This document shows positions 6,412 through 41,879 of a DNA stretch of 42,464 bases, piece by piece (the stretch's first letter is position 1; each line of letters starts with the position of its first letter). The position numbers and the translations under genes were made by a program. The notes under the pieces are model-generated. The model was given only the letters and a program-made list of their open reading frames with translations. It did no database searches and had not been told where the DNA came from. Origin of the DNA: a virus. The stretch spans positions 1 through 42,464 of the IMG/VR virus record IMGVR_UViG_3300025896_000050. One strand, given 5' to 3'.

Positions 6412-6578
6412 TGAAACTGCACCGATACATAATCACATTTGAGAATTGGGCAAGCCCTATCTTCGTCAACGCATACAAGCTAGAGAACGCCACAAAACGA
6501 GCCTACGCACTGTTTCCAGTCTGTGACTGTGGATGTGGCGAAGCAACAGAAATAAAGGAGGTGAGAAAGCTAAAATAA
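6411..6578 (+). CDS. Small protein with CDCGCG cysteine cluster, 55 aa
   Basis: ATG overlaps the preceding stop (TAATG) and has a near-perfect AAGGAGG ribosome site. Residues 1-36 are mixed aromatic/basic. Cysteines C38, C40 and C42 sit in FPVCDCGCGEAT, which could bind a metal, though only three cysteines are present, so a fourth ligand (His4 or a dimer partner) would be needed. It ends TAATG into the next gene. Function unknown. Confidence 0.75.
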   Translation: MKLHRYIITFENWASPIFVNAYKLENATKRAYALFPVCDCGCGEATEIKEVRKLK

Positions 6579-6721
6579 TGGTAATTACTCAAGAGATCAG
6601 GGAAGAAATATCCCGATTGATGGAAGAATACAAGAACAATCCAAGCAACTCAAACAAGTCACTACACTCAATGTATGCACTGTTTGAAGATGAACAAGTC
6701 TATAAGGAGGACGAGTTATGA
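6578..6721 (+). CDS. Small helical acidic protein, 47 aa
   Basis: The start is placed at 6578, inside the stop of the previous gene, rather than at an upstream ATG (6533) that would overlap it by 46 bases; AAAGGAGGTGA lies upstream. EEISRLMEEYKN and the C-terminal ALFEDEQVYKEDEL are helix-forming and acidic. No family recognised. Its stop overlaps the next start (ATGA), continuing a chain of coupled small genes. Confidence 0.65.
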   Translation: MVITQEIREEISRLMEEYKNNPSNSNKSLHSMYALFEDEQVYKEDEL

Positions 6722-6936
6722 AAACATTAGTAGCAATTTGGGTCGCCGTGTTGGTAACAGCACTAGGGACCGGGGCGTATGTAAACGCCGCAATAGATCA
6801 AAGAGTGGCACAATCCCAAGCGGAACAGCTACAGCCAGCAGCAACAGCACAGCAAATCCAGCCAGCCGGGACTATAGAAGTAAAGACCTATAACCCACAG
6901 CAGACCATAAACGGAAAGGAATTGCAAGGTAACTAA
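6718..6936 (+). CDS. Small membrane-anchored or exported protein, 72 aa
   Basis: The N-terminus is Met-Lys followed by a hydrophobic run (LVAIWVAVLVTALGTGAYV), a signal anchor or signal peptide; an AYVNAA segment could be a cleavage site. The rest is Gln/Ala/Pro-rich and probably disordered outside the membrane. A strong AAGGAGG site precedes it. Function unknown; possibly an envelope protein made early to alter the cell surface. Confidence 0.75.
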   Translation: MKTLVAIWVAVLVTALGTGAYVNAAIDQRVAQSQAEQLQPAATAQQIQPAGTIEVKTYNPQQTINGKELQGN

Positions 6937-34342: not shown

Positions 34343-34371
34343 ATTATAACTTGTTTCTTCCATAAAGTCAA
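34343..34371 (-). promoter_or_regulatory. Internal late promoter before the head genes
   Basis: TTGACT (34366-34371), 17-base spacer, TATAAT (34343-34348). The -35 box contains the TGA stop of the HNH gene upstream. It would start a transcript about 33 bases before the Cys/His gene and serve scaffold and capsid. Confidence 0.8.
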
Positions 34372-34685
34372 GAACTTTCTTTTAAATAGGTTATTGCACT
34401 CTGTAAAATGGCTATATTTCGGAGTTGACCTATGCCCTGATTGCACCTACTGCACAGTAAGCCCCGGACTTTGCCTGTGTCATGGTCGTGGTCTACTGCA
34501 AGGTTTCTACCAGTGAGACACACCCCTTTGCATATTGCACACTTGCCGTCCTGTTTTGCGAACATTCGTTCGTATTCCTCTAGTGTTATCCCGTAGCGAC
34601 GTTTGAGCATACAACGACGATAGGCAAGCTTGGTCTTCTCAGGGTTACGTTTATTCCACTCGTACTGAGCAGAATACTTAGTCAT
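34368..34685 (-). CDS. HNH endonuclease of the endonuclease VII type
   Basis: 105 residues from ATG 34685 (GTGAAG seven bases upstream); a longer frame to 34775 is unlikely because it lies inside the preceding gene. CAIC (49-52), LAVDHDHDTGKVRGLLCSRCN with DHDH (65-68) and CSRC (78-81), then GIGQLRN. This is the T4 endonuclease VII zinc/His-Asp core. Could be a free-standing homing enzyme or take part in resolving branched DNA during packaging. Confidence 0.88.
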   Translation of the reverse strand: MTKYSAQYEWNKRNPEKTKLAYRRCMLKRRYGITLEEYERMFAKQDGKCAICKGVCLTGRNLAVDHDHDTGKVRGLLCSRCNQGIGQLRNIAILQSAITYLKESS

Positions 34686-35007
34686 CGTTTTCTTCACCAA
34701 GTTTCTGGCGTATTTTAGCCTTGCGTTGAGGACTTCCAGCAACCTGCATAGCCTTGAGCATATACTTATAGGCATTGAGGTCTGCGAGGGCGTTATTATA
34801 GCCCGTGATGTCCTTGCGGTACTTGTCGGAAGTGATTTCCTTGATAATGAGGTTGATCTTCTTCGTGGCTAGTTGCGTGAACAACTTACCTGTGGCTTGC
34901 TCAAAGAACTGCTCGGCGGCTACAGCCTCACGGAGCTGATCTTCAAGCTTTTCAATTTCTTCTGTTTCAGGGTTACTGGCTTCCAGTTCCCGTTGTCGGT
35001 TGTCCAT
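34678..35007 (-). CDS. Hypothetical helical protein, 109 aa
   Basis: Acidic and helical: ETEEIEKLEDQLREAVAAEQ, then LFTQLATKKINLIIKEITSD, then a basic RKAKIRQKLGEENDD end. Placed between two HNH genes in the head block. It may be a minor head protein. No family recognised. Confidence 0.75.
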   Translation of the reverse strand: MDNRQRELEASNPETEEIEKLEDQLREAVAAEQFFEQATGKLFTQLATKKINLIIKEITSDKYRKDITGYNNALADLNAYKYMLKAMQVAGSPQRKAKIRQKLGEENDD

Positions 35008-35333
35008 TAAATTTCTCCATATTTTTCTATGTACACCTCGTACTTCTTAATGAAGTTACAATTAGCACATAATAGTTGATATTTATTCTCTGTGTCATTC
35101 ATGACCGCCATGTATCTTTGATATACAGACTTGAGCTTCTTACGATCTTCGTAACCGTCATTGTTAACGTGATCTACGTGTAGTGCCCGATGGTCTGAAA
35201 AGCCACATTCGACACACTTGCCGCCTAGCTTTTCTAGGACCTCTACACGCTTTTGACGGTTGAGTTTCCTATAGTAGCCTTCAGCGACACGCTTAGCTTG
35301 CCGGAGCTGTTGGCGTTCCTTGGTTTGCGGCAC
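35007..35333 (-). CDS. HNH endonuclease, 108 aa (GTG start)
   Basis: Start is GTG at 35333 with ACAGGAG upstream, inside the portal gene by 41 bases. Basic N-terminus, C40-x-x-C43, HVDHVNNDG (52-60) and CANC (89-92): the common HNH-with-zinc-ribbon plan (as in phage HNH near terminase/portal). A homing enzyme or packaging partner. Two HNH enzymes flank one small gene, which looks like insertion of mobile elements. Confidence 0.88.
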   Translation of the reverse strand: MPQTKERQQLRQAKRVAEGYYRKLNRQKRVEVLEKLGGKCVECGFSDHRALHVDHVNNDGYEDRKKLKSVYQRYMAVMNDTENKYQLLCANCNFIKKYEVYIEKYGEI

Positions 35334-37395: not shown

Positions 37396-38091
37396 CTATT
37401 TATAGTGTACGTTGATGAGTTCAGAGTACACTCCCATTTCGAGAACACGGTCTTTACCGATTTCCTTCGTGATAGAGGTAGCCTTTCGGACAGTTCCGAA
37501 TTTGTTTGCTCGTTCGTAGTCTTCGTCAGCGGTGGTGTAGAGTCGAATGTGACACTTGTTCACTTCATCATCTGCACCGTAAAGAGGCGACTCAAAATCA
37601 GGCGTTGATACTAGCACCGAGCCGCCGGGTGCTAAGACTTTATCAATGAGGCTTAAACAGAGTTGAACGTCTTTAACGTGCTCAATAATCTCAAAGAAAG
37701 TTATGACTTCAAACTTGCGTCCTTCTTTGGCGAACTTGGCAAGCCATTCTTCGACAGTCCCCTGATGGAAGTCAGCTCTGACGTTGAAAGTCGTAGCTCG
37801 TTCTTTGGCAATGTCAATCCCTTCTTGTGTGAGATCAACACCAGTGACGGTAAGTCCGAGTTGATGTCCAATCGTGAGTGCGAACGAACCATCAAGACAC
37901 CCAAGATCAAGGAGAGTTTTAGCTTCCAGTTCTTCAATCTTGTCAAAAGCCCACCCAAAGCGAGGGATGACTTCGTTGACTGTTGTGCAGAGTTTCTCTG
38001 GGATTGGTTCAAAGTTGTGGTGTTCGTAGAATTCTTCATAGTTCTCCATATCGAATTTAGTGTCATGTTTGCTTGGATCACCTACCATCAT
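37396..38091 (-). CDS. Class I SAM-dependent methyltransferase
   Basis: 231 residues from the ATG at 38091, eight bases behind AAAGGAG and overlapping the glycosyltransferase stop by four (ATGA). Motif I LLDLGCLDGSFAL, then TVTGVDLTQEGIDIAKER (acidic end of strand 2), FFEIIEHVKDV (motif III) and APGGSVLVSTPD. The overall order is that of small-molecule or glycan methyltransferases. Next to glycosyltransferases it may methylate a sugar in virion or host glycan. Confidence 0.9.
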   Translation of the reverse strand: MMVGDPSKHDTKFDMENYEEFYEHHNFEPIPEKLCTTVNEVIPRFGWAFDKIEELEAKTLLDLGCLDGSFALTIGHQLGLTVTGVDLTQEGIDIAKERATTFNVRADFHQGTVEEWLAKFAKEGRKFEVITFFEIIEHVKDVQLCLSLIDKVLAPGGSVLVSTPDFESPLYGADDEVNKCHIRLYTTADEDYERANKFGTVRKATSITKEIGKDRVLEMGVYSELINVHYK

Positions 38092-38672
38092 GATAGTTTC
38101 TCCTTTATAACTGCGTCCCATTGCTTAGCAACATCGGACCAGTCAGAGTTATCCACAGGTTTGCCCGTTTTTTCCTCAAGAAGTGCGGATACTACCGCCT
38201 CTATAAATTTAGACTGCTTGTATTCATCTGTGTATATCTTACGAGTTTTAATCTGTGTTCCACACTGGACAGTTTCGGCTAAAGCTGCTACGTTGGTCGT
38301 AACAGGATAACAGCCAGCCTCTTGTGCTTTTAGTGCTGTAATACAGTGAATTTCTGGAAACTCAGTAGGGTAAGCCCATACTTGAGTCTGCTTCATAGCC
38401 TTGGCTAGTTCTTCGTGCGAAACCCTGCCATGTACAGTAACACCCTTGTCAGCCAGTTCAGCGAACCGTTGTTCCATTCGCTCGTAGAAATCATCCTCAC
38501 CCTGTAGGGCGACCCATGACTCCCAACCGTAATAGACATCGAGGGTTGCTTCGGGGACTTGTTCTTTGATAGACTCCCACATGTTGAGCAAACACTCCAG
38601 CCCTCTGTAGTAGGCTGAGAAATATCCGACGCTGTATTTTCGTTTTTCATTAGTGACTCCTTTAGTCATCAT
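38088..38672 (-). CDS. Glycosyltransferase C-terminal (GT4 nucleotide-sugar) half, separated from its N-terminal half
   Basis: 194 residues. KRKYSVGYFSAYYRGLECLL, ATLDVYYGWESW, GVTVHGRVSHEELAKAMKQT, YPTEFPEIHCITALKAQEAG and CYPVTTNVAALAETV are strand order and motifs of the second Rossmann domain of GT4 (GT-B) enzymes, including the E-P-x-x-x-x-x-A-x-E-like donor-binding region (EFPEIHCITALKAQEAG). The first Rossmann domain is missing here; it ends the protein at 40233. The start is at 38672 or the adjacent second ATG at 38669, within the end of groEL. Confidence 0.85.
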   Translation of the reverse strand: MMTKGVTNEKRKYSVGYFSAYYRGLECLLNMWESIKEQVPEATLDVYYGWESWVALQGEDDFYERMEQRFAELADKGVTVHGRVSHEELAKAMKQTQVWAYPTEFPEIHCITALKAQEAGCYPVTTNVAALAETVQCGTQIKTRKIYTDEYKQSKFIEAVVSALLEEKTGKPVDNSDWSDVAKQWDAVIKEKLS

Positions 38673-40233
38673 CCTTCTCCAAATCTTGTTTTTCTTTTTT
38701 ATTACAGATCAGTACACCAGTGGTTAGGACTGAACCTGCAACCGAAGTGGCGTTAGTGATAGCTTGGCGAATAACCATGACTGGATCAATGACACCGTGT
38801 TCCTTGAGGTCCACAAGTTCCATGTCACCCATAACGTCAAAGCCTTTACCAAACTCTTTAAGTTGTTCGAGACGAAGCCCGGCACGTTCTCCTGCGTTCT
38901 GCATAAGAATACGGAATGGCTGTTCCAGTGCTTCCTTCAATAGTGCTGTGCCGTCGTCAGAGCCCGTCAGACGCCTTGCAAGCTCAATATAGGTAGTTCC
39001 ACCACCCGGCACTATTCCGTCCTTCAGGGCGGCTTCTGTGGCTGCTACGGCGTCATCAACAAGGTACTTGCGTTCTTCCGCTTCCATTTCAGTGTTACCA
39101 CCAACACGGATTTGACCAACCTTAGCATTGAGTTGTGCAATACGTTTTTCAATCTTCTCTTTGTCAAACTGACTCTTAGCGAGCTTTAGTTTGCCGTCGA
39201 GGTCTTTGATGTAGGACTTTACGTCACTACCACCAGTTACTACAGTTTCGTTCGGAGTGATTACCAATTCTTTACAGGTTCCAAGGTCAGCAACACTTAG
39301 GCTATCTACCTTGCGAGGTAGGTTGTTACCGACAGCTTCAGTGCCGCATACGGCTGCGAAGTCCTTCAACAGTTCGGCACGGTTGTCACCGAAGCCGGGT
39401 GCTTTAACACCGATAACATAGAAGTCTTGCGTCATAGATCGGAGAGCTGTATCGAGTAGGTCGTTCTTGAAGTCGTTACAGACAATCACAAGAGCGTCGT
39501 GCTTGCCACTGTCATAGACATCCTGAATAAGTGGGCGTACATCTTTTTCTGATAGCGTGTTATGAGCAACAAGTATTGCAGGATTTTCAAGAGTCGTGCT
39601 TTGGGTTCGGGCGTCAGTAATCTGCATAGGGTTAATGAAGCCACGGTCAATAGTGTAGCCTTCGACAATTTCATACTCTGTTTCAGGTTTGGTGCCAATC
39701 TCTACAACGACCATCCCGTTCTTGCCGAGGACGTGGTACATGTGACCAACCTTCTTACCAACCTCTGGGTTCTCACTAGAGATGGTGGCGATTTCGATAG
39801 TCTGCTTTTCAGTTTCAATAGGGGTTGACAAATCTTTCAAAAGATTGAGTGCTTGTTCTGCGGCTTCGTCAAGTTCACGGCGTAACACCATAGCGTTCTT
39901 ACCGTTCTTGATTTTTTCCATTCCCTTATCCATTAGGTGGTAGGCAAGGATTGTACTAGAGGTAGTACCGTCACCTACGTTGTCGTTGGTCTTGCTTGAG
40001 CTTGCTTTAATCATCTCAATACCAACCTGAGCACCGGGGCTTGCAGCCTCGACGTTCTCGATTGACTTAGCGACAGTCACACCGTCGTGAGTTACAATAG
40101 GTTCACCAAAAGCTTGAATGACGGCGTTGTTTCCTTTCGGACCGAGAGTAGTAGACACAGCGTCATACAATAGATGGGCACCTTCTAGTAGCTGTTCTTT
40201 GGCGTCATTGCCAGTAATGATGAGTTTCTTCAT
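38662..40233 (-). CDS. groEL: GroEL-type chaperonin (Cpn60)
   Basis: 523 residues. TLGPKGNNAV (29-38), THDGVTVAKSIEN, NVGDGTTSSTILA (85-97, the ATP site DGTT with D88), ALKDGIVPGGGT and ITNATSVAGSVLTT are canonical. The ring chaperonin folds proteins in ATP cycles. Host groEL ends in GGM repeats; this one ends acidic (KEKQDLEKDDD). No groES is in the window, so it works with the host co-chaperonin or without one, as phage chaperonins can. It lies exactly between two halves of a glycosyltransferase gene, with TAATG overlap at its start. Confidence 0.97.
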   Translation of the reverse strand: MKKLIITGNDAKEQLLEGAHLLYDAVSTTLGPKGNNAVIQAFGEPIVTHDGVTVAKSIENVEAASPGAQVGIEMIKASSSKTNDNVGDGTTSSTILAYHLMDKGMEKIKNGKNAMVLRRELDEAAEQALNLLKDLSTPIETEKQTIEIATISSENPEVGKKVGHMYHVLGKNGMVVVEIGTKPETEYEIVEGYTIDRGFINPMQITDARTQSTTLENPAILVAHNTLSEKDVRPLIQDVYDSGKHDALVIVCNDFKNDLLDTALRSMTQDFYVIGVKAPGFGDNRAELLKDFAAVCGTEAVGNNLPRKVDSLSVADLGTCKELVITPNETVVTGGSDVKSYIKDLDGKLKLAKSQFDKEKIEKRIAQLNAKVGQIRVGGNTEMEAEERKYLVDDAVAATEAALKDGIVPGGGTTYIELARRLTGSDDGTALLKEALEQPFRILMQNAGERAGLRLEQLKEFGKGFDVMGDMELVDLKEHGVIDPVMVIRQAITNATSVAGSVLTTGVLICNKKEKQDLEKDDD

Positions 40234-41879
40234 TAAAACTGCTCCTTCTTAATTCCGTTACCGATGATTTTGAATTTGTCATCTGGTACTTCTGGGTAGA
40301 GATCACGGTGGTATTTAGTTTTTACAAGGTAGGTTACATCTGGGTAGTCTTTGATAAGAGCTTCAGGTAATACATCGTGAATGTCGGCAAGTTTAACCTT
40401 GGCGTTCACTCGTTCGAGGTATTGTGGTGCCCTCCAAGAAATGAACACGTTGAAGTGGTCACGCATGTCAATCTCTTTCCAAGGTAGCCATGTCACACCA
40501 TCGACAACGGTTTTCTCTGGAACTTCACCGTAAACAGTGACGTTGTATCCGAGCTTAGCGAGTTCAGGTGCGAGGTAGACAACTGCTTCTTCTGATCCAC
40601 CCATACCCTTATCGAGTGTGTGTGGTCCCCATTCTTCGTAGCCTTGACCACAGAAGATGACGATAGATTTTTCAGTCCATGAAGTTGGGAGTGTAGCGAT
40701 ATTGCGGAGTTGTTTGATACGCTTGTCGTACTTGATAGCGTCACACAGTGCGTTAAACAGTGCTTCGTCACTTACGAAAAACTTGCGGATTTTTGGTAGT
40801 AGATTTACAAATGCTTCAGCGTCAGCTTGTTCGTAGAAGTCTTCAACGACATCACGTACTTCTGGTAGGTGCTGAACTTTACGCATGTACTGGAGTGCTT
40901 CGTTGTAGCGTTCCAGCATGAATAGACATCGTGCGGCAATCAAGTTTGCACGGTCACGTGAACTTGGGTCCCATACTGAGAGAGTCTCAGGGTCTGGTTT
41001 GCTTTCCGATACCTTCACCCATTCAAGGGCTTCCAAGTAGTTATCCTGATCGGCTTCGTACTGAGCGAGTAGCCAGTAAGCCATCGGATATTCAGGTTTA
41101 AGGGTAGCACACTTGGTAGCGTATTCAAGAGCAAGATCGAACTTGCCAAGGTGGTAAGCACACTCAGAGAGTAGACCGAGGGTACGGTACACGTCTTCTA
41201 TACTTCCACCAACTTCTAGATAATCTGTCAATAGCTCCCCTGCCTTCTCGTAGTCTTTACCAGTAAAGTAAGACATCCCTAGATAGTGTAGGTAGCGTGG
41301 GTCTTTCGTTGCAGCATAGGCTTCTTCGAGGATAAGGTGGTTGCGTTCGTATGACCCCTTAGCGTCATCAACAGTAGCGTTGTGCTTGACCTCAAAGTTT
41401 ACTTTATGGGTAACTACCTTTTCATCAGAGATACAGGTTTCGTGAACCCATCCCCTCCAAGAGTAGCCTCTACCTAACCTTACAAGCCTCTCACGCCAGT
41501 GTCGGGTAATACAGTTTCCTTGTTCATCCTGCATGTAGTTGTATGGCATGAAAATAGCGTCTATACCATTTTCTTCAGCTATGTCAACTAATTGTGGGAT
41601 TGCACGGAAGTCAAAACTATCATCGGCGTCAAGCCAAAAGAAGAAGTCGGTAGTACACATGTCGAGTGCGACGTTACGTGCCTCGTCAAAACGGTTGTTC
41701 CACTCCCGGTACTTCAAGTTCACCTTAGCGTCAGGGAAGTTTTTCTTTAGTTTGTTGTATGTTGGTTTGTCAGATACGACAACGTTTAGTTGGTCGAAGT
41801 AATCAAAGGCTTGCGACAGCAGTACTTCTACTTCTGCGAACTCATCCTTGACGATCATTGATAGTGCTACTGTGCTCAT
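40233..41879 (-). CDS. Glycosyltransferase: GT2 domain, TPR-like middle, and N-terminal half of GT4
   Basis: 548 residues. An N-terminal GT2 (GT-A) domain: STVALSMIVKDE, FWLDADDSFD with the DADD metal site (84-87), GWVHETCI. Then about 190-400 is TPR-like helical repeats (YLHYLGMSYFTGKDYEKAGEL). From about 406, SIVIFCGQGYEEWG, KGMGGSEEAVVYLAPELAKLGYNVTVY and FVISWRAP-like segments form the first Rossmann domain of a GT4 enzyme. The protein stops at GNGIKKEQF, the hinge between GT4 domains. The other half is at 38088. Likely decorates virion or host glycans. Confidence 0.88.
   Translation of the reverse strand: MSTVALSMIVKDEFAEVEVLLSQAFDYFDQLNVVVSDKPTYNKLKKNFPDAKVNLKYREWNNRFDEARNVALDMCTTDFFFWLDADDSFDFRAIPQLVDIAEENGIDAIFMPYNYMQDEQGNCITRHWRERLVRLGRGYSWRGWVHETCISDEKVVTHKVNFEVKHNATVDDAKGSYERNHLILEEAYAATKDPRYLHYLGMSYFTGKDYEKAGELLTDYLEVGGSIEDVYRTLGLLSECAYHLGKFDLALEYATKCATLKPEYPMAYWLLAQYEADQDNYLEALEWVKVSESKPDPETLSVWDPSSRDRANLIAARCLFMLERYNEALQYMRKVQHLPEVRDVVEDFYEQADAEAFVNLLPKIRKFFVSDEALFNALCDAIKYDKRIKQLRNIATLPTSWTEKSIVIFCGQGYEEWGPHTLDKGMGGSEEAVVYLAPELAKLGYNVTVYGEVPEKTVVDGVTWLPWKEIDMRDHFNVFISWRAPQYLERVNAKVKLADIHDVLPEALIKDYPDVTYLVKTKYHRDLYPEVPDDKFKIIGNGIKKEQF

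Follow-up and report, generated by a model that had tools for sequence, protein, structure and literature searches.

A groEL gene inside a split phage glycosyltransferase gene, and signs of recurrent fission at the same hinge

The three-gene locus and its unbroken relatives

The window, by which we mean the whole stretch of viral DNA analysed here (42,464 nucleotides; IMG/VR record IMGVR_UViG_3300025896_000050), carries on its minus strand two small genes followed by the N-terminal half of a glycosyltransferase (N-half), groEL, the C-terminal half (C-half), a methyltransferase and an SU10-like portal gene. An SU10-like major capsid protein is encoded further downstream of the portal on the same strand. 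The features of the locus are listed below.

40233..41879, minus strand: N-half glycosyltransferase, 548 aa, with a GT2 (GT-A) domain, TPR repeats and the first GT-B lobe (GT4 N-domain)
40231..40235, minus strand: stop/start overlap TAATG of N-half and groEL, 1 base, in a TAATGA context
38662..40233, minus strand: groEL, complete chaperonin of 523 aa
38662..38672, minus strand: 11-base overlap ATGATGACTAA of the groEL stop and the C-half start, with GGAG just upstream
38088..38672, minus strand: C-half glycosyltransferase, the second GT-B lobe (GT4 C-domain), 194 aa counted from the first ATG
37396..38121, minus strand: SAM-dependent methyltransferase, downstream of the C-half

The three open reading frames, their motifs and the 1-base and 11-base overlaps on the minus strand are as the first-pass annotation had given them. 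In Pfam the N-half matches Glycos_transf_2 and TPR, and weakly Glyco_transf_4 (426-458). It ends in the hinge motif GNGIKKEQF and is alignable to unsplit relatives through its final residue, 548. Matches of the C-half are confined to C-lobe models (PF13692, PF00534), and it covers positions 174-333 of the 374 in phrog_2170, the back half of a glycosyltransferase. Its start is more likely the second ATG (38669), 7 bases behind GGAG, than the first. The groEL product is full-length and matches PF00118 (2e-50) and phrog_5725 (4e-116); the ATP-site motifs GPKG, DGVTVAK, GDGTT, PGGG and DDA are all present, and the C-terminus is a short charged tail. No Cpn10/groES match was found in the window record or in the eight groEL relatives searched, and the GroES partner could be that of the host.

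The overlapping stops and starts point to successive translation of all three proteins from a single message, probably with translational coupling. The methyltransferase is probably in one operon with the split-gene locus, and it is kept in the same position across the whole groEL clade and in the unsplit relatives L007-L009. Promoter and terminator scans of the region gave results near chance level. An 81-codon ORF is nested in the C-half in another frame (38405-38650, minus strand), with AAAGGAG, a good ribosome-binding sequence, before its ATG. Just downstream of the portal gene lie an endonuclease VII-like gene (34368-34775) and an HNH gene (35007-35333), both on the minus strand, and the latter overlaps the end of the portal gene.

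The gene is truly split, at the hinge between the lobes, because related phages encode the same protein as an unbroken ORF. Many phage contigs have this unsplit version, for the most part 735-850 residues long, among them L007 (761 aa), L008/L009 (753 aa) and MW202743 (annotated as 761 aa). In L007 the hinge reads GNGLKKSQFDMAIHKKRHTVGYFSAYYRGLESLL in one frame; in the window it reads GNGIKKEQF followed by a stop and then, past groEL, NEKRKYSVGYFSAYYRGLECLL. It had been proposed from the window alone that the two halves are parts of one GT4 enzyme behind GT2 and TPR-like parts, and a search for phages with the unsplit gene had been suggested. Such genes were found in L007, L008/L009, L011, L012, L018 and others, all crossing the hinge in one frame. 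The two-protein form is thus tied by descent to the one-protein form and is not an independent two-protein enzyme. The order N-half, groEL, C-half in nine more contigs, together with the unbroken homologues, is beyond chance.

Two proteins of uncultured Caudovirales in BFVD, A0A6J5QFS6 (547 aa) and A0A6J5SEY0 (200 aa), are an apparent N-half and C-half, respectively 43% and 66% identical to unsplit L008. Deposited as separate proteins, they carry no annotation beyond GT2-like for the first and glycosyl transferases group 1 for the second. Searches of bacterial genomes gave only five weak relatives, every one on metagenome-assembled contigs, and therefore no host is assigned. A second GT4-like glycosyltransferase is encoded a few kb downstream of the first, split or unsplit, in L010 (4442-5323) and in similar places in L036, L037, L039, L058 and L085.

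Occupants of the hinge and repeated splitting

Of the 119 usable relatives found by profile searches, 50 have the gene split and 69 have it whole. All splits are at the same hinge, in a census that would see breaks upstream of the GT4 lobe and in which breaks in the C-lobe would escape notice. The N-half stop falls 0-13 residues past an NG(I/V/L) motif, most often two, in every split row (50/50), and 65 of the 69 unsplit ORFs have at least 340 residues before the GT4 N-lobe. Three loci were left out. L074 and L083 were rejected as split pairs, being different multi-GT proteins; L169 (4193-5981) has a frame break in the GT4 N-lobe before a separate C-half, either a sequencing error or a decaying copy.

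The space between the halves holds groEL in 10 of the 50 split rows, an HNH endonuclease in 6, other ORFs in 15 and almost nothing in 19. At near-empty junctions, ATGA often serves as both stop and start. The HNH inserts, identified by Pfam, are in L061, L112, L122, L125 (with NUMOD3), L167 and L168. Among the other ORFs, one in L039 encodes a DNA methylase (PF01555), one in L067 a SAM methyltransferase and one in L081 a protein weakly similar to Dam; further ones encode short proteins of unknown function. The C-half is fused to other sequence in several loci: in L093 (5383-8001) and L113 it follows an N-terminal extension of ~200 residues, and in L063 (5974-7290), L065, L068, L140, L147 and L175 a long C-terminal extension comes after it. 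The contig of one split pair, L098 (JAHKLX010000105.1), is catalogued as a Micrarchaeota genome and may be a phage sequence that was binned in.

The groEL arrangement is found in ten contigs, the window included; the other nine are L001/L014, L002/L015, L003/L004, L005, L006, L013/L020, L016, L017 and L030, with L017 (MW202497) a complete circular public genome. These loci form one clade (98/88; 96% of bootstrap trees), and their nearest kin, L007, L008, L031 and L033, are all unsplit. No groEL was found in 16 further records searched outside the clade, some of which are fragments (L007 just 5.7 kb). Because the groEL loci form one clade and none was found outside it, groEL was probably gained once, at the split site. 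Identity of the protein to phage GroELs beyond this clade reaches no more than about 36%.

One or two small ORFs of variable presence lie between N-half and groEL in most members of the clade, and L016 has one also between groEL and the C-half. The window has none, so the earlier remark that no coding base is wasted holds for the window but not for the clade. The N-half/groEL interval of L016 (7671-7957) and of L017 (5135-5425) encodes one such protein with a metalloprotease-like motif, HEVIHA/HEILHA; in L017 it matches phrog_1233, whose function is unknown. No endonuclease was found at the split in the window or in the groEL clade, where groEL and the small ORFs are present instead. In L009, a groES-like gene (6519-6782; Cpn10, phrog_3188) is directly downstream of the unsplit glycosyltransferase, and no groEL was found within that 23 kb contig. 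Because this gene lies behind an unsplit glycosyltransferase, chaperonin genes reach the neighbourhood by more than one way.

On a tree of 104 rows, at least 8 changes between the split and unsplit states are required (bootstrap 7-9), 7 of them forced by well supported branches. With an unsplit outgroup the number is 9, or 10 fissions when fission is taken as irreversible. The sequences thus suggest that the hinge is a recurrent fission site with groEL merely one of its occupants, and groEL itself cannot therefore be assumed to be the opener. The six HNH rows have six separate placements on the tree. The clearest instance of an endonuclease beside a fresh split is L167, which carries HNH at the hinge in a clade with 11 unsplit rows (100/100) and has no tight-split relative there. 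Since HNH genes occur in six separate lineages, one of them within an otherwise unsplit clade, endonuclease invasion is likely a way in which the gene gets opened. Two HNH loci carry what look like traces of recombination at the hinge: a second, divergent copy of the N-half tail forms the end of the HNH ORF in L125, and a remnant of the start of the C-half lies ahead of the HNH gene in L061. Three HNH rows adjoin tight-split sisters (L061 with L153, L122 with L119, L112 with L140), so an endonuclease can also enter an already-split gene. Probably both routes occur. For the groEL lineage, where no endonuclease trace remains, an endonuclease may have been the opener.

Conservation and predicted structure of the two halves

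All 50 split rows keep four motifs without change: in the N-half a glycine-rich GGSE and an HD pair, in the C-half RG and a Glu. In known GT4 enzymes (PimA-like), these residues line a common cleft. In the EX7E motif the first Glu is invariant in split rows and the second is Lys in the window; most members carry Lys there whether split or not, so this change is not a sign of decay. For the unsaturated split pairs (L034/L035, L036-L038), dN/dS is 0.02-0.13 in both lobes; comparisons of the window with its relatives are mostly saturated at synonymous sites. Unsplit pairs have values mostly of 0.03-0.28, and the split pairs are no higher than most of them. These ratios point to purifying selection on both halves. 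The expectation from the window that both pieces had been kept is borne out: the ten groEL phages, and the 50 split loci taken together, have both halves intact and under constraint.

Pairwise distances of the N-lobe and C-lobe correlate over the split rows (r 0.89; 0/2000 permutations as high), and weakly within the groEL clade (r 0.40; 24/2000 permutations as high). This agreement mostly reflects shared descent and is expected of any two linked genes. Nearest neighbours by N-lobe and by C-lobe agree in just 18 of 50 rows, and strict pairing lacks clear support.

The joined chain was modelled on a natural unsplit relative, L008, and not on the window's own pair. The predicted L008 structure (pLDDT 93) is a confident one and places the split between residues 564 and 574, in the loop that joins the final element of the N-lobe to the first strand of the C-lobe. 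Together with the existence of unsplit relatives, this agrees with the first-pass view that a GT4 gene was opened at a domain boundary. Residues 412-753 of L008 match whole GT-B enzymes (MshA, Z 29.2, 306 aligned, 2.6 A; PimA, Z 27.5). Predicted alone, the C-half of the window (pLDDT 92) matches the C-lobes of TarM (313-492, Z 18.6), PimA (179-362, Z 17.9) and glycogen synthase. It had been read as holding the second domain only, with a complete enzyme of another family as the alternative; the model folds as, and matches, C-lobes only, as do the profile matches. The structural matches include 2bfw, a glycogen-synthase C-domain in isolation, and receptor fusions bearing that domain, and therefore such a C-lobe can be a stand-alone folded unit. 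From the sequences and predicted structures, we infer that the two halves most likely assemble as an active two-chain enzyme.

Explanations for the locus and relation to known systems

We consider it quite likely that the locus reflects recurrent fission at a tolerant hinge, partly via homing endonucleases, with both halves kept and probably working as a two-chain enzyme. A phage gene of GT2-TPR-GT4 type was cut in two at the linker joining the Rossmann lobes of its GT-B fold, and groEL came into the gap in an ancestor of the ten known phages. The halves, intact and constrained, would meet as two chains with the active cleft between N-half and C-half. Free-standing HNH endonucleases would open the gene at the hinge in some lineages; elsewhere other genes, or none, lie there.

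The main competing account concerns the order of events and fits with a retained two-chain enzyme: the gene may have split first, for example by a small shift to an ATGA overlap, with groEL, HNH and other genes landing later and the endonucleases as passengers. We give this a little less than an even chance. The 19 split rows with almost nothing between the halves, many with ATGA, and the HNH rows that adjoin such rows are in its favour, and in phage 25 a seg endonuclease may have entered a pre-split gene 43 (PMC2988022). Tight junctions may equally be remnants after loss of an insert, however, and the HNH gene of L167, among unsplit rows and lacking tight-split kin, is hard to fit to it. That the two-gene state is ancestral and the unsplit forms are later fusions appears improbable. 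Split rows do occur in several deep clades and there is no independent root, but the distant relatives beyond the split clades are unsplit, and rooting there requires 9 changes with an unsplit ancestor versus 12 with a split one.

It is also unlikely, though slightly less so than ancestral separation, that the gene was simply broken and the halves are leftovers, the N-half persisting as a GT2 enzyme and the C-half decaying or otherwise employed. The complete GT2 domain might function alone, but the N-half retains the GT4 N-lobe up to the hinge, and none of GGSE, H, D, R, G and E varies among split rows. Both halves are retained in order in the ten groEL phages and the 50 split loci, L169 being one other locus, frame-broken in the N-lobe; dN/dS is low (0.02-0.13), and within the groEL clade conservation is higher for the C-half (70-80% identical to that of the window) than for the N-half. 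Rejoining of the parts into one polypeptide by a group I intron, an intein or ribosomal frameshifting seems very improbable. Introns and inteins are common in interrupted phage genes, and tight junctions are one frame apart. Against this, no Rfam match was found in the window region or at seven insert loci, the N-half stop at most 13 residues past the hinge motif leaves no space for an intein half, and the C-halves have their own start codons. In the window the halves are separated by a complete groEL ORF of 1.57 kb, which rules out joining by frameshift there. We thus retain recurrent fission with both halves kept as the best explanation.

For groEL, a role in folding virion proteins is as plausible as one in aiding the split enzyme, because the gene precedes the portal and capsid genes. 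Phage-encoded GroEL-like proteins are also known from EL (gp146) and AR9 (PMC7185714, PMC9598537); these are giant phages, whereas the chaperonin of the window lies inside a split gene of a phage of ~42 kb.

Phage enzyme genes opened by a free-standing gene, with the pieces kept, are known from nrdA/MobE of Aeromonas phage Aeh1, gene 43 of phages 25 and 44RR, and topoisomerase 60/39/MobA of T4, and activity has been demonstrated for split NrdA and gp43 (PMC2988022). UAAUGA-type stop/start overlaps are described at endonuclease genes, for example nrdA/mobE of T4, and the TAATGA at N-half/groEL resembles that context (PMC2988022). In contrast to the nrdA/MobE type (PMC2988022), the gene here is a GT-B glycosyltransferase, with at least 7 state changes at one hinge and a varying occupant; the endonuclease that defines that type is absent from the window and the groEL clade and present in related loci. 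Alg14/Alg13 and EpsE/EpsF likewise divide the two lobes of a GT-B enzyme between separate chains whose common cleft holds the active site, and fused forms are also known (PMC8993221). These are cellular enzymes of other GT families that transfer GlcNAc to lipid carriers, likened here by their two-chain layout, and the available part of that source describes no invading genes at the joint (PMC8993221). We found no split phage glycosyltransferase in the literature searched, nor one containing groEL, which does not prove absence elsewhere.

What is new is that a GT-B enzyme gene appears to have been split repeatedly at its domain boundary, in a manner akin to known split phage genes but with an occupant that differs from case to case. 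The hinge may be a reusable docking site, which homing endonucleases and other genes enter time after time because lobes made as separate chains still form the active cleft, and at which selfish occupants give way to cargo such as a chaperonin or DNA methyltransferases, a reading for which we see the balance as even. Invaded split genes are known as single cases, such as nrdA of Aeh1, and the replicated changes seen here at one joint, at least seven, with different occupants and unsplit relatives alongside, allow asking how cut genes survive, whether splitting begins with selfish genes and how cargo takes over. Database entries in which apparent halves stand as unrelated proteins are also flagged, and the many natural candidate two-chain GT-B enzymes may serve the study of how lobes find each other.
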